Source: Salinibacterium sp. (GTDB taxonomy: Bacteria; Actinomycetota; Actinomycetes; Actinomycetales; Microbacteriaceae). From it: a stretch of DNA of 64,000 nt. Within the stretch, counting starts at the first letter, position 1. Every line of letters starts with the position of its first letter. Below, in pieces: positions 31,521-35,994 of this stretch. Below the pieces are notes generated by a model that did not search any database, had not been told where the DNA came from, and saw only the letters and a program-made list of their open reading frames with translations. A program made the translations under genes and the position numbers. The stretch covers positions 1 to 64,000 of the forward strand of contig JANXVG010000037.1 in assembly GCA_025351795.1 (NCBI GenBank), in the 5' to 3' direction.

Positions 31521-31534
31521 GGCGAATAGACGTG

Positions 31535-31550
31535 GTCGAATCGATTCGAC
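31535..31550. promoter_or_regulatory. LacI-family operator
   Basis: GTCGAATCGATTCGAC is a perfect 16-bp palindrome. Its centre AATCGATT matches the AAnCGnTT core bound by LacI-family proteins with a central CpG step. It lies in the 76-bp gap between the lacI-type gene and the MFS start. If the MFS gene started at the GTG at 31532, the site would be inside coding sequence; this favours the later ATG. Confidence 0.7.
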
Positions 31551-31582
31551 TCTTGCTGATCCACAACCCGCCAGGATGCCCG

Positions 31583-32815
31583 ATGTCACCTAAGACCACG
31601 TCGCCCGGCGCTCTCACTACAAGCCAGACCCTCGCTTGGCGTAACGCCGTGTTCGCTATCTTCGCCCTGCCCGGAATTGCGATGGCCAGTTGGGCCTCGC
31701 GATTGCCCACCATCAAGGAGTCGCTCGGCATCGACCTCGGCCAAGCCGGCATCCTGATCTTTGCGATTGCCGTTGGATCGATCGTTGGCCTCGTCGCATC
31801 CAGTCACATAATTGCCCGCTACGGTGTGCGCGCGACAATTTTCGCAGGCTTGATCGTCATGGCCGCGACTATCATGACTGTCGGCCTCGGAGTGACGTTC
31901 GGGCCGAGCTTTGCGATCGTGTTTGCCGGGCTCGTATTCTTCGGGGCAGCGATGGGCATGACAGATGTCGCGATGAATGTTTCGGGAGCCGCGAACGAGC
32001 GCGCCTTCGGCCGCAACATCATGCCGATCTTTCATGCCTTTTTTAGCGGTGGCACGATGCTCGGCGCTGCCCTGGGGGCACTCGCGGAGGTCGCTCACGT
32101 TCCTCTCGCGATGCACGTCTTCGCGATCGCCGTGCTGATTGTCGTGGGGGCGATTGTCGCCACACGATTCCTGAAATCCGAGCACGTCATCGATGACAGC
32201 GGCGAGACACTCGCAGCGAGTGACCACTCACGGTCGTGGCGAGGCCGCCTTCGCATCTGGCGCGATCCGCGAGTTCTGCTCATCGGAATTGTCGCTCTGG
32301 CCGCGGCGTTCGCCGAAGGGTCGGCCAACGATTGGCTCACGATCGCGATGGTCGACGGTCATGGTGTGACAAAGGCAACCGGCGCGCTCGTGTTTGGAAT
32401 CTTCGTCACAGCCATGACGGCCGGGCGGCTCGGCGGTGTCTTCCTCCTTGATAAATTCGGGCGCGTGAGGGTGTTGCGTGGGTCGTTCCTGCTCGCAGCT
32501 GCAGGCTTGCTGCTTGTTATCTTCGTACCGAATCCGGTCGTCGCGGCGGCCGGAGTGGTGTTCTGGGGGCTGGGCTCTGCGCTCGGATTTCCGGTGGGGA
32601 TGTCTGCGGCCGCCGATGATCCCAAGACGGCCGCCGCCCGAGTGAGCGCTGTCGCCACCATCGGCTACTTCGCATTCCTGGTGGGGCCGCCAGTGATCGG
32701 CTTCCTCGGGCAGCGCGTCGGCATCCTCCACGCGTTGCTCGTCGTTCTCGTGCTTGCCGCACTCGGCGCGATCGTGGCCGGCGCCGCTCGGGAGCCCCAG
32801 CTGCGACCGGCTTAG
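31583..32815 (+). CDS. MFS transporter (FucP/YbjJ-like)
   Basis: 410 residues with about 12 predicted membrane helices. [26 protein letters not shown] and [39 protein letters not shown] are typical of the YbjJ/fucose-permease-like branch, in which GMxDVAMN and FHAxFSxG are conserved. Substrate unknown. The ATG at 31583 has AGGA 7 nt upstream and leaves the operator outside the gene; a GTG at 31532 is the alternative. Paired with a LacI regulator, so sugar transport is a reasonable guess. Confidence 0.85.
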
Positions 32816-32825
32816 ACTCAATTCC

Positions 32826-32987
32826 GTGCGTCGTGTGAGTGCGAAGTGCTCCGTCGCCTGTACCAGGCGACTCAACGCGCACCTGCCACGTGCGACGCGA
32901 CTGTTGCTGCTCAAAGCAGACGGCAGCGTGCTCGTGCATTCCGACTTCCTGAGCTACAAGCCGCTCAACTGGATGAGCCGCGCGTAG
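32826..32987 (+). pseudogene. Truncated 5' copy of nucS
   Basis: From the GTG at 32826 the 53 codons align end to end with the first 53 residues of the intact NucS at 34617; 38 of 53 residues are identical, including [11 protein letters not shown] and [10 protein letters not shown]. It then stops (SRA-stop). Most matching codons differ synonymously, so this is not a fresh duplication. The conserved VDYxGRL segment of NucS is degenerate here (VACTRRL), consistent with relaxed selection. Like the intact gene it has a TAnnnT box (TAGACT, 32813-32818) 7 nt before its start, overlapping the MFS stop. No NucS body follows; the nuclease domain is absent. Confidence 0.8.
32967..32979 (+). repeat. 13-bp direct repeat, left copy (nucS junction block)
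   Basis: AACTGGATGAGCC ends the similarity between the truncated and the intact nucS copies; the identical block recurs at 34758-34770. The sequences diverge immediately after it. Candidate recombination or attachment junction. Confidence 0.5.
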
Positions 32988-33071
32988 GTGTGTGTCAAAC
33001 CGGTCCTGAGAGTGAGCACACCTTGGCCTCGGGGTCTCTTTGTCGAGTGGGCTGCGCCGCAGGCTTGACTC

Positions 33072-33509
33072 GTGCCGCGCATCCTCATCACCGGCATGTC
33101 CGGTGCCGGAAAGTCCTCGCTCCTCGCGGAGCTCGGTCGGCGCGGCTACCTTGCAGTCGATACCGATTACGACGGCTGGACGCGACCCGACGGCCTCTGG
33201 GACGAGCGGAGGATGACTGAGTTGCTGAGCTTCCGCATCGACGTGGTCGTGTCAGGAACGGTCGAGAACCAGGTCGATTTCTACGACCGCTTCGAGCATG
33301 TGGTCCTTCTGAGCGCTCCCGTCGAGGTGTTGGTCGAGCGCGTTGCGACCAGAACGAACAACCGCTACGGCGGCTCACCCGAGCAACAGGACGAGATTCG
33401 CCGTTACGTCGCGGAGGTCGAGCCGTTGCTGAGGTCGGGAGCAACGGCGGAACTCGACGGTCGCCGTCCCGTGGCCGAACTGGCTGATGCGATCAACGCC
33501 CTCGTGTAG
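33072..33509 (+). CDS. Small P-loop kinase-like ATPase
   Basis: 145 residues. Walker A is GMSGAGKSS at residues 7-15, followed by LAVDTDYDGW and a shikimate/adenylate-kinase-like layout (VVVSGTVENQVDF, then VLLSAPVEVLVERVATRTNNRYG, with a lid-type arginine pair). It resembles AAA- or shikimate-kinase-fold nucleotide kinases of unknown substrate. The GTG at 33072 gives a normal start directly before the P-loop strand. It opens the accessory segment between the nucS fragment and intact nucS. Confidence 0.75.
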   Translation: MPRILITGMSGAGKSSLLAELGRRGYLAVDTDYDGWTRPDGLWDERRMTELLSFRIDVVVSGTVENQVDFYDRFEHVVLLSAPVEVLVERVATRTNNRYGGSPEQQDEIRRYVAEVEPLLRSGATAELDGRRPVAELADAINALV

Positions 33510-33563
33510 GGACAACCTCTGGTTCCGCTCGACGCGCAGCGCATTTCGTATGACGATGAATTC

Positions 33564-33938
33564 GTGAAGCGCATCATCCAAGGCCACGAAGTCGATGAGT
33601 CGCGGGTCGATGAGTGGGCGGTAGAAGCCGGATACGACATCGACCAGCTCCGCGCCCGCTGGGGTCGCGCCCCGCGTGGAGCCACGGCCGCGCAGGTCAT
33701 TCCCGTCCGCTTGACACCTGACGAGCTCGCCGCGGTCATGGCGCGCGCCGAGCGGGAGGGACTGAATCGCTCCGAGGCGATCCGAGCCGCGCTCGACGCC
33801 TGGCGCACGTCGCGCGAGACACCATGGCATTCCCTGAACTCTCGCCTCCACGCGCCAGCCGACCCTGAGGTCACGCTCTTCCAGGAGCCGGAAACCCTCA
33901 ACCGACGTCGCGCCCGGCCCGGTTTCAAGAAACCTTGA
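33564..33938 (+). CDS. Ribbon-helix-helix (CopG-type) DNA-binding protein, antitoxin-like
   Basis: 124 residues. The central segment VIPVRLTPDELAAVMARAEREGLNRSEAIRAALDAW (about residues 45-80) is a ribbon-helix-helix domain. The N-terminal 40 residues resemble those seen in some CopG-type antitoxins, and the C terminus is basic. The GTG at 33564 is the only in-frame start after the stop at 33507; it could extend upstream from a rarer start codon. It follows the P-loop kinase by 54 bp. No toxin is adjacent on the same strand, so its partner is unclear. Confidence 0.7.
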   Translation: MKRIIQGHEVDESRVDEWAVEAGYDIDQLRARWGRAPRGATAAQVIPVRLTPDELAAVMARAEREGLNRSEAIRAALDAWRTSRETPWHSLNSRLHAPADPEVTLFQEPETLNRRRARPGFKKP

Positions 33939-34003
33939 ACGGCATGGCGTGGGGCTCGTGAGGCACTGTTTCCCAGCTCAGCCCTGCGATGGCCGACCCG
34001 AGA

Positions 34004-34309
34004 CTACACCAACCGATCGGCGAACCGCTGACGATCCTGGGCATCGCCGACGACGGCGATTATCCGCACAACGCGCGTCTGCTGGTTTACGCGGTACCAA
34101 AGTTGGCAGGGGAATACGCCGAGCTGCCAGCGTCGCACGTCAGCGCTGATGACGCCACCAATCTCAATGTGGTCGACCAATAGACGGGCTGCCGTAAAGA
34201 CCTCTGCCACGAAACGGCCGGTCTGATGCGGCGCGACTTCGTCGTAATAGGTCTGTTCCCGAAGAAAGTCGCGTTCGGCGTTTGAACTGACCCGAGCGCT
34301 GAACGTCAC
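34004..34309 (-). CDS. RelE/ParE-superfamily toxin
   Basis: 101 residues. FSARVSSNAERDFLREQTYYDEVAPHQTGRF, then LGVFPCQLWYRVNQQTRVVRIIAVVGDAQD, follow the ParE/RelE layout (two helices, then a sheet with xYRV and VxxxH/D-like ends). The expected effect is gyrase poisoning (ParE) or ribosome-dependent mRNA cleavage (RelE); sequence alone does not decide. The start overlaps the stop of the antitoxin gene by 4 nt. Confidence 0.8.
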   Translation of the reverse strand: MTFSARVSSNAERDFLREQTYYDEVAPHQTGRFVAEVFTAARLLVDHIEIGGVISADVRRWQLGVFPCQLWYRVNQQTRVVRIIAVVGDAQDRQRFADRLV

Positions 34310-34536
34310 GCAGTGCGCTTTGCCCGACGGGCCAGCGTCTTTCGCTCAAGTTCTTCGAGCGAGATGTAATCATCGTGGTTCGCCGCATCGTCCTCGGCAA
34401 ACCGTTCGGTTAGGAGCGAGGAAAGTTCCGGCGTGAGGTACTCGCTGACGACGGACGCCTCGATCGCGTCGCGGAGTTCAAGGCGTGAGCCCGCATCGAG
34501 CTTCATTACCTGCTCCAGCAGCGCACTATCGACCAT
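34306..34536 (-). CDS. Antitoxin of the RelE/ParE-type pair
   Basis: 76 residues. LLEQVMKLDAGSRLELRDAIEASV is the N-terminal pattern of the small addiction-module antitoxins usually paired with ParE-like toxins; the C-terminal half is acidic then basic (DDAANHDDYISLEELERKTLARRAKR), as expected for a toxin-wrapping tail. It precedes the toxin gene with a 4-nt overlap, the standard order. Confidence 0.78.
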   Translation of the reverse strand: MVDSALLEQVMKLDAGSRLELRDAIEASVVSEYLTPELSSLLTERFAEDDAANHDDYISLEELERKTLARRAKRTA

Positions 34537-34604
34537 GTTGCAATGGTATGCGCGACCACATACCAGAGAAGGCTCCGCGCCACATCGTAGAGAACGCGAC
34601 CCGG

Positions 34605-34610
34605 TAGCGT
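34605..34610 (+). promoter_or_regulatory. -10 element of nucS
   Basis: TAGCGT ends 6 nt before the nucS ATG, compatible with a leaderless transcript. A GGAG lies between it and the ATG, but too close to act as a good ribosome site. Confidence 0.4.
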
Positions 34611-34616
34611 GGAGTA

Positions 34617-35312
34617 ATGCGTCTCGTCATCGCCCGCTGCTCGGTGGACTACGCCGGACGGCTAAGCGCCCACTTGCCTTTAGCCACAAGGCTTTTGGTA
34701 GTAAAAGCAGACGGCTCGGTGCTCGTCCATAGCGATTCACTCAGCTATAAACCTTTGAACTGGATGAGCCCGCCCTGCAGTCTCGCAATCATCGAGCCCG
34801 ATTCTGATCAACGGGATGCTGGCGTCACCGAGATCTGGAAGGTCGCGCAGGCGAAGACGGCCGACCTGCTGGTGATCTCGATTCATCAGGTGCTGCACGA
34901 CTCGAGGCATGAGCTCGGCGTGGACCCCGGCCTGCGCAAGGACGGCGTTGAGGCGCACCTGCAGAAACTGCTCGCCGACAACATCGATCTGCTCGGCGAA
35001 GGTTACCGGCTGGTTCGGCGCGAGTACATGACGGCGATCGGCCCCGTCGATATTCTGGCGACGGATGCTGGCGGCGGCTCGGTTGCGATCGAGATCAAGC
35101 GGCGGGGGGACATCGATGGCCTCGAGCAACTCACTCGGTATCTAGAGCTCATGAACCGGGATCCGCGGCTCGCGCCCGTTGCTGGAATATTCGCGGCACA
35201 AGAGATCAAGCCTCAAGCCCGGATGCTCGCCCGCGATCGCGGCATTCGCTGCCTGCTGCTCGACTACGACGCGATGCGCGGCCTCGATGACTCGCATTCG
35301 CGACTGTTCTAG
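34617..35312 (+). CDS. nucS: Mismatch-specific endonuclease NucS
   Basis: 231 residues, full length. NucS cleaves both strands at mismatches and is the non-canonical mismatch repair enzyme of Actinobacteria that lack MutS/MutL. The N-terminal DNA-binding domain ([21 protein letters not shown]) and the C-terminal RecB-like nuclease core ([38 protein letters not shown]) are complete, with Asp and the ExK motif in place. Codons at about 34665-34760 are AT-richer (TTA, GTA, TAT, AAA, CTT) than those of the rest of the gene and of the truncated copy at 32826, suggesting a different origin for the first 50 codons. Confidence 0.95.
34758..34770 (+). repeat. 13-bp direct repeat, right copy (inside nucS)
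   Basis: AACTGGATGAGCC at codons 48-52 of intact nucS, identical to 32967-32979. Beyond it base composition returns to that of the surrounding genome. Confidence 0.5.
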
Positions 35313-35337: not shown

Positions 35338-35994
35338 ATGAAACAGCCGTTCTCCGCCATCCTGTTCGACCTCGACGGAACGATCGTCGACTCGGCGCCC
35401 GGCATCACCGCAACGCTCGCGCATACCTTCGAGCGACTCGGGCTCGCGATTCCCACGCCAGCCGAACTAGTTGCGTACGTTGGGCCGCCAATTCTCGATT
35501 CGTTCCGCGATCTGGCTGGGTTCTCGTTCGACGAGTCGGAGCGCGCACTCGGGATCTACCGCGCCGAGTACCTCTCGACCGGGGTATTCAATGCGACCGT
35601 GTACCCGGGAGTGGAGAATGTGTTGCGGGCGATCCACGAGAGTGACGTGGCGCTGTCGCTTGCGACCTCCAAACCCGAGCAGCCGGCGAAACTCATCCTC
35701 GACCGGCTAGGCCTTCTACCCTACTTCGACGTGATCACGGGGGCGTCTGATGACGAGGTGCGCAGCGCGAAGAAGGACGTCGTCGAGGAGGCTCTCGAAC
35801 GGCTGCGCGCGTTAGGTGCCGAGCTCAACAACCCGGTCATGGTCGGCGACCGCGAGCACGACGTCGCGGGCGCCGCACACCACGGCATTCCGACGATTTT
35901 CGTCAAGTGGGGCTATGGTTCGCCGGCGGAAGAGGTCGGCACGATCGCGGTAGCGAAGACCGCACCCGAACTGCAACGACTACTGCTCGGCTAA
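35338..35994 (+). CDS. HAD family hydrolase, phosphoglycolate phosphatase-like
   Basis: 218 residues. HAD motifs I to IV are visible: FDLDGTIVDS (nucleophile Asp), SLATSKPE, the Lys of SAKKDVVEEAL, and MVGDREHDVAGA. The cap after motif I is of the alpha-helical Gph type. Likely a small-molecule phosphatase (phosphoglycolate or similar); the exact substrate cannot be read. It converges with the polyketide operon. Confidence 0.88.
   Translation: MKQPFSAILFDLDGTIVDSAPGITATLAHTFERLGLAIPTPAELVAYVGPPILDSFRDLAGFSFDESERALGIYRAEYLSTGVFNATVYPGVENVLRAIHESDVALSLATSKPEQPAKLILDRLGLLPYFDVITGASDDEVRSAKKDVVEEALERLRALGAELNNPVMVGDREHDVAGAAHHGIPTIFVKWGYGSPAEEVGTIAVAKTAPELQRLLLG

Follow-up and report, generated by a model that had tools for sequence, protein, structure and literature searches.

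A probable integrative element in the 5' end of nucS of Salinibacterium, and apparent repeated insertions at the same site in other Microbacteriaceae

Introduction

Elements that enter the 5' end of a conserved gene and refit it are described at dusA and prfC, where the dusA-specific elements (e.g. IMEVchUSA3) and SXT, respectively, equip the host gene with a replacement promoter and a diverged N-terminus, its reading frame being restored (PMC8409611). Here we analyze a 64,000-nucleotide stretch of Salinibacterium sp. DNA (contig JANXVG010000037.1; hereafter, the window), in which this mode of action appears at nucS of Microbacteriaceae, the gene for NucS, described as the mismatch-repair enzyme of Actinobacteria lacking MutS-MutL. 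As with the dusA and prfC elements, the host gene is interrupted near its 5' end, with a native-looking orphan 5' part on the far side, and a diverged in-frame N-terminus appears to be supplied by the insert. Unlike these mobilizable elements, which encode their own integrase, the nucS units, in which no intact integrase was found, are in some cases serial, and lie at a mismatch-repair gene.

In Streptococcus pyogenes, SpyCI islands occupy the 5' end of mutL, and one case of an island-borne promoter rescuing expression is described (PMC3430984). Common to both is a mismatch-repair gene with an island at its 5' end, and a takeover of nucS, if true, would parallel SpyCI in mutL; however, SpyCI are, in that account, phage-like elements that inactivate mutL and excise with growth, whereas nucS seems to be refitted with a start. 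SCC/ECC elements are described as using one conserved gene, rlmH, as their site, with serine recombinases, variable cargo and remnants (PMC6222049). The single conserved gene as site, a serine recombinase (truncated, in G239), the variable cargo and the remnants recur at nucS; unlike in SCC, the site is the nucS 5' end rather than the attB at the rlmH 3' end, and the window insert contains no ccrA/B. SCC are also known for tandem cassettes and restriction-modification (R-M) cargo. Nobusato is said to have described, in 2000, R-M units that have no recombinase and lie between long direct repeats of the end of a host gene; unlike in such a long target duplication, the restored nucS end looks foreign in three genomes (the window's, G239 and G334). 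Among the literature matches listed, which largely lacked subscription papers, there was no description of nucS in connection with mobile elements, islands or defence.

Two nucS starts in the window

The start of nucS occurs twice in the window, on the same strand, on either side of an insert:

31532..32815, plus strand: major facilitator superfamily (MFS) transporter gene, native left flank (Pfam MFS_1, 1.3e-32)
32813..32818, plus strand: TAGACT, -10-like hexamer of the presumed old native nucS start, 7 bases before GTG
32826..32987, plus strand: orphan nucS 5' fragment at the left junction, apparently decaying; 53 codons, nucS-like to codon 51, TAG stop (Pfam NucS_N, 7.5e-15)
32967..32979, plus strand: 13-base block AACTGGATGAGCC, left copy, NWMS codons
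32984..32998, plus strand: putative element left end GTAGGTGTGTGTCAA, which contains the stop of the orphan; 10/15 positions equal TTAGGTGTGTATTTC, found at the same place in G108 (junction comparison)
34593..34616, plus strand: promoter-like right end, TAGCGT 6 bases before ATG
34617..34769, plus strand: nucS codons 1-51, apparently replaced by a foreign version with the protein conserved and the codons altered (88% nucleotide identity to L134_f6045; next best 79%)
34758..34770, plus strand: 13-base block AACTGGATGAGCC, right copy
34770..35312, plus strand: native-looking nucS body, codons 52-231, C-terminal nuclease domain (NucS_C, 3.3e-42; clusters with its own genus)
35338..35994, plus strand: HAD phosphatase gene, native right flank (HAD_2, 1.3e-28)

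The intact gene is a single open frame of 231 codons (34617-35312) with foreign-looking codons 1-51, over which the two copies are 75% identical at the protein level. A full NucS query matched only two places in the genome itself, the orphan at 2.8e-18; a chance repeat is thus rejected, and both predicted copies, each with the 13-base block, are confirmed. The identity of the block is due, in part, to coding constraint because it sits in the conserved NWMS stretch. The insert contained no further significant nucS remnants.

The orphan starts 10 bases past the MFS stop codon. Among 107 nucS loci (genus relatives and named genomes, with some genomes counted twice and many short flanks), 65 have a same-strand MFS match upstream of nucS, with a median gap of 163 bases measured from the match end and a gap of at most 300 bases in 43. 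This adjacency appears to be native and, therefore, the orphan occupies the place where native nucS would begin. On the other side, an HAD match downstream of nucS is common among Microbacteriaceae loci. An assembly error is unlikely given that the same layout recurs elsewhere, in part on contigs of 0.2-1.2 Mb from other genomes.

Origins of the two starts and of the gene body

For comparison of the starts, a pool of 122 sequences was used (FastTree without three duplicate rows; IQ-TREE on 86 of the 122 rows). At the nucleotide level, codons 1-51 of the intact gene share 88% identity with a nucS fragment of G108, a genome of genus g83, and no more than 79% with the rest of the pool; start and fragment form a pair in both trees (0.998 in FastTree, 100/100 in IQ-TREE). 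The closest sequences to the orphan are the native nucS genes of Salinibacterium L053 (84%) and of L011 from the window's own genus (82%), and IQ-TREE places it in a starred set with Salinibacterium L053 and L045. The body of the gene is closest to its own genus (79-80%), followed by an Agromyces (78%), with the G108 body at 70%, and codons 52-231 fall in own-genus clades (13 rows, 0.706; 20 rows, 0.807). Thus, separate trees for codons 1-51 and 52-231 are in conflict, as anticipated in the original prediction.

When the 5' end was compared to the expectation from the body across 112 nucS genes (standard deviation 0.035), the most deviant were G334 (-0.207), G239 (-0.188) and the window (-0.066), all three of which have left fragments. 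The intact starts of these three genomes group with starts from other genera (0.998; 0.919-0.98 in FastTree), and carried starts of a second type, in which HRD(V/I)Q takes the place of HSDGGSY, are present in G239, G334 and G208 (FastTree, 0.98).

Over 50 codons, the orphan differs from L053 by 13 synonymous and 9 nonsynonymous changes, whereas the intact start differs by 28 and 4, about double the synonymous change; in pairs of native genes, the corresponding numbers are 13 and 0 (L053-L011), 12 and 0 (L053-L045), and 15 and 1 (L046-L053). The orphan, then, looks like an ordinary ortholog released from constraint, and the intact start like a distant version preserved for function. The intact start is also, as predicted, more AT-rich than the body (third-position GC of 0.67 vs. 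0.77); the difference of -0.105, compared to a mean of -0.034 (standard deviation 0.064) for the 107 nucS genes, is weak as sole evidence.

Recurrence in Microbacteriaceae

A scan of 398 genomes of the family with codons 1-53 gave matches in 380, of which 9, including the window's, had more than one match, whereas in other families of the order no extra nucS start was found in any of the 357 matching genomes (of 362; scan of 396). The genome counts in both scans were made by eye; for families at a greater distance, the outside-family scan may have overlooked decayed fragments, its query being the L046 start. All extra fragments of the eight other carriers (8/8) share contig and strand with an intact nucS and are upstream of it. 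The originally suggested search of other genomes for bounded segments was positive, with such segments lying between nucS 5' copies in eight other genomes. No sister genome of the carrier genera in the family scan had more than one match (in g34, this applies to 3/3 others).

The inner end is kept in 11 fragments from six genomes (window, 1; G108, 4; G164, 1; G208, 2; G239, 2; G334, 1); these 11 do not include the fragments of G386, G166 and G147, each of which is weak or truncated, and the G147 fragment (47% identity, two stops, E = 0.0039) may be a chance match. With the first 53-56 codons as tblastn query, the inner ends fall at codons 50-53 in 10/11 fragments and at codon 46 in the remaining one. 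Three loci (G108, G208 and G239) contain serial arrays, as expected if each newcomer went into the nucS that was intact at the time. At the carrier loci in general, the units measure approximately 0.7-7.5 kb from start to start. Judging by these layouts, the nucS start may be considered a recurrent insertion hotspot with serial arrays.

One further match, in G208, is a second intact nucS; the two genes differ and lie on separate contigs (L120 on C23 and L121 on C16), with the array at one of them, and the bin may be mixed.

A full-NucS search of 26 genus relatives found no separate nucS 5' fragment; second matches in two of these are explained by a split gene (G017) and by codons 41-231 at a contig end (G021). 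In the former (L029; G017:C2:206877-207567), nucS is split into overlapping frames covering codons 1-121 and 104-231, as would result from a frameshift or sequencing error; this relative is a possible natural mutator.

Element ends and promoters

In three G108 units, TTAGGTGTGTATTTC (hereafter, the left-end motif) directly follows the fragment, and G164 is one base off; unit 1 of G239 matches at 11/15 positions. Altogether, the motif is resembled at 6/11 junctions and is exact in three. In 249 genomes, the exact motif occurs three times, each time at a G108 nucS fragment; allowing one mismatch added three places, including the G164 fragment, compared to four for the reversed control. Because the reversed control is as frequent at one mismatch, only the exact motif is telling. 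A joined pattern, which contains the nucS end and is hence biased to nucS by design, matched four nucS fragments with 0-1 mismatch (three in G108 and one in G239) and missed that of G164; its matches with 3 mismatches are at chance level. The window, with 3 mismatches in the joined pattern and absent at 1 mismatch, is itself at chance level by this measure alone, so that the likeness of its left end would be telling by position only. In the window and in G108, the motif supplies the in-frame stop of the fragment. Where an upstream MFS match is present (65 loci), it is separated from nucS by more than 300 bases in 22; among these, the motif was found in L044 alone, so that not every insert before nucS belongs to this kind.

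At the other end, CCGACCCCGTACTCTGG precedes the start codon in two G108 units and in the intact gene of G164; the promoter of the intact G164 start thus matches the G108 elements and not its own left copy. The window right end agrees with that of G108 and G164 at 14/24 positions, a score that the native L064 and L065 equal, so that it gives no indication of kinship.

In Mycobacterium smegmatis, the nucS transcript is reported to begin at the start codon (PMC12649562). Consistent with leaderless expression, TANNNT occurs 4-10 bases before the start codon in 91 of the 107 nucS genes, compared to a shuffled rate of 2.9%, and both nucS starts of the window have a -10-like hexamer in the leaderless position. 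Accordingly, a carried start must supply its own promoter.

Recombinases and mobile forms

The only recombinase found at these loci is in G239, where the left fragment is followed by a truncated serine recombinase (PHROG integrase, 9.2e-20; 0.0023 against CcrB). Its homologs (E of at most 1e-15) are found in 11 other genomes of the 249, in no case beside a nucS start within the loci examined. For the window, the original prediction that no integrase is present holds: a profile search found none among the open reading frames (ORFs) of the insert that were tested, and the serine and tyrosine recombinase domains of the genome lie on other contigs, the serine recombinase on C68, away from nucS.

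A search of viral contigs for close relatives confirmed no nucS start, blastn found no match of the intact window start in plasmids, and the right-end pattern had no viral match; an origin from a phage or plasmid is accordingly rejected. A left-end 17-mer matched one viral sequence that lacks nucS, taken as chance.

Among the matches in a phage collection, three unannotated fecal contigs labeled 'Bacteriophage sp.' (MT838864.1, MT836018.1 and MT839036.1) carry a full nucS, which is single in the 5.8 of 9.6 kb read of MT838864; these are probably host chromosome in a virome set.

Discussion

We consider it likely that the 1.6-kb stretch between the two nucS starts is an integrative element, or the remnant of one, that entered nucS at about codon 51, as originally proposed. 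In support of an insertion that restored the gene, the comparisons indicate that the orphan is native, the intact start foreign and the body native, and that the site was hit repeatedly and serially, with varied cargo and in other genera.

The course of such an event can be outlined. A site-specific recombinase, with no candidate seen other than a large serine recombinase, would act at codons 50-54, presumably in trans on small units. The right end of the element would bring a leaderless promoter along with foreign, protein-conserving codons 1-51, both of which would then serve the native nucS body, such that nucS would remain expressed, and the old promoter and start would be left as a decaying orphan ended by a stop codon. 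Conceivably, the changed codons lower recombination between the two copies and guard the element from deletion. More tentatively, and with less confidence than we would need to favor it, nucS of Microbacteriaceae could be a general landing site, where small, often defence-carrying units with their own promoter and start are stacked one after another at about codon 51 by a trans-acting recombinase, each newcomer taking over the promoter and the first 51 codons of nucS.

Several observations weigh against these interpretations. The left-end motif is absent at 5/11 junctions, and the window and G239 match it at only 10 and 11 of the 15 positions. With the full-length NucS query, the last aligned codon of the fragments varies from 48 to 79, the longer alignments reading through a stop. 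In the nine carriers, there is no serine Recombinase domain on the nucS contigs, and the tyrosine integrases are on other contigs or at least 22 kb away (nearest in G386, 22 kb); no intact integrase was found at the nine nucS loci among those of their ORFs that were library-searched and, for L136, among the ORFs listed, and no free form of the element was found in the collections searched. Constraining the two window starts to join costs 37.9 log units over 153 columns, a borderline result in the approximately unbiased (AU) test (p = 0.052), and the same constraint is not rejected for G334 (p = 0.075). Furthermore, the intact starts of G164 and G208 each cluster with their own left fragment, a pattern that local duplication or gene conversion would leave: from the start codon onward, the G164 copies share 99% identity across 153 bases, and those of G208 are sisters (100/84). 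These native-like intact starts suggest gene conversion between repeats or target copying in the two genomes.

Such copying would be the rule under a long target duplication, whereby the insertion of defence or toxin-antitoxin genes duplicated the nucS 5' end, both starts being host-derived and diverging afterwards. The G164 and G208 copies and the two AU tests that do not reject a joint origin fit this scenario, and R-M units with long target duplications have reportedly been described. However, the intact starts of the window, G239 and G334 group with other genera, a joint origin is rejected for G239 (p = 0.027), and the intact start of G164 shares its promoter with G108 elements rather than with its own left copy, which makes target duplication an unlikely source of the window locus. 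Marginally less likely still is the spread, by homologous recombination, of a ready-made nucS array from another strain or genus, with no site-specific step in this lineage. A ribbon-helix-helix (RHH) gene and an intact start common to distant genera, together with the failure to find an integrase, would be accounted for, and the intact start of G208, which by eye resembles its second fragment in the first nine codons and its first fragment in the remainder, points to local exchange. Yet a native-like orphan next to a native-like body would need exchange ends within codons 51-53 on both sides, and differing cargo in other genera has about the same end point; homologous recombination would account for the spread of the arrays and not for their origin. 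The idea that the left fragment is an independent small gene for a short NucS-like peptide, and the arrangement ancestral, has in its favor that the 53 codons form an open frame and that a -10-like hexamer is present; it is largely refuted and hardly credible given that the fragment is absent from the 26 genus relatives, that a second match is lacking in 371 of the 380 family genomes, and that it has nine nonsynonymous changes relative to L053, compared to none between L053 and L011.

Cargo genes

The cargo ORFs of the window, between the two nucS starts, are as follows:

33072..33509, plus strand: P-loop kinase-like protein, 145 amino acids (Pfam AAA_18, 2.2e-10)
33564..33938, plus strand: RHH protein, antitoxin-like, with no partner toxin gene (RHH_1, 1.3e-6)
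34004..34309, minus strand: ORF of 101 amino acids, RelE/ParE label not confirmed (no family in four libraries)
34306..34536, minus strand: ORF of 76 amino acids upstream of the 101-residue ORF, possible antitoxin, not confirmed (no family in four libraries)

Of the labels originally assigned to this cargo, the P-loop kinase and the RHH protein are borne out by Pfam, whereas the RelE/ParE-type pair, at the limits used, matches none of the families of Pfam, NCBIfam, PADLOC and PHROGs, and the AlphaFold model of the larger ORF, computed without a sequence alignment, has a mean pLDDT of 52.7. The P-loop kinase-like protein has no relative among the other nucS loci compared.

The RHH protein is 81% identical to that of L044, whose partner matches a PHROG annotated as 'toxin' (2.4e-8); RHH-toxin pairs are present in L044, G108, L140 and others, and several plasmid matches coincide with features named toxin. 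At the window locus, there is no such partner gene, nor the antitoxin-then-toxin arrangement. RHH matches occur in 35 of the 249 family genomes (30 of the 37 matches were compared by locus). The six matches with at least 77% identity come from six genera and all (6/6) adjoin and lie upstream of a nucS start on the same strand, that of G108 upstream of a nucS fragment inside the array, whereas none of 24 weaker loci (47-67% identity) had a nucS start within the fetched locus. L140 and L071 are two further nucS-linked RHH loci. Thus, the window RHH gene appears to belong to a nucS-tied subgroup, a shared cargo.

In L071, L197, L198 and L199, from further genera, an RHH-toxin pair or its remains lie directly before nucS, with no left fragment (in L197, a short remnant at most).

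In other carriers, the cargo includes PD-Lambda-5 A and B (PADLOC), an HNH nuclease and a DUF1643 protein (both Pfam) in G108; PDC-S46 (2.2e-255) plus a type II methyltransferase and the cognate restriction enzyme in G208 (PADLOC); and PDC-S06 with a SIR2-like protein (PADLOC) and an Mrr-type nuclease (Pfam) in G334. According to names read from translations, G239 carries flavin-dependent oxidoreductases and dehydrogenases, and G166 an aldolase and dihydroxyacetone kinase operon. Defence cargo is frequent, then, and not universal, some of the cargo being metabolic.

If elements with defence genes repeatedly take over the promoter and N-terminus of nucS, the gain of phage defence and the control of mutation rate may be coupled, and if nucS is indeed a landing site, mutation rate and defence content would be linked. 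The interval between nucS 5' fragments and the intact gene offers a handle for finding small defence units; the units without an assigned defence system include the DUF1643 and HNH units of G108. In one unit that lies between others, the DUF1643 protein (L134:6021-6602, minus strand) is the sole large ORF listed, a candidate defence gene.

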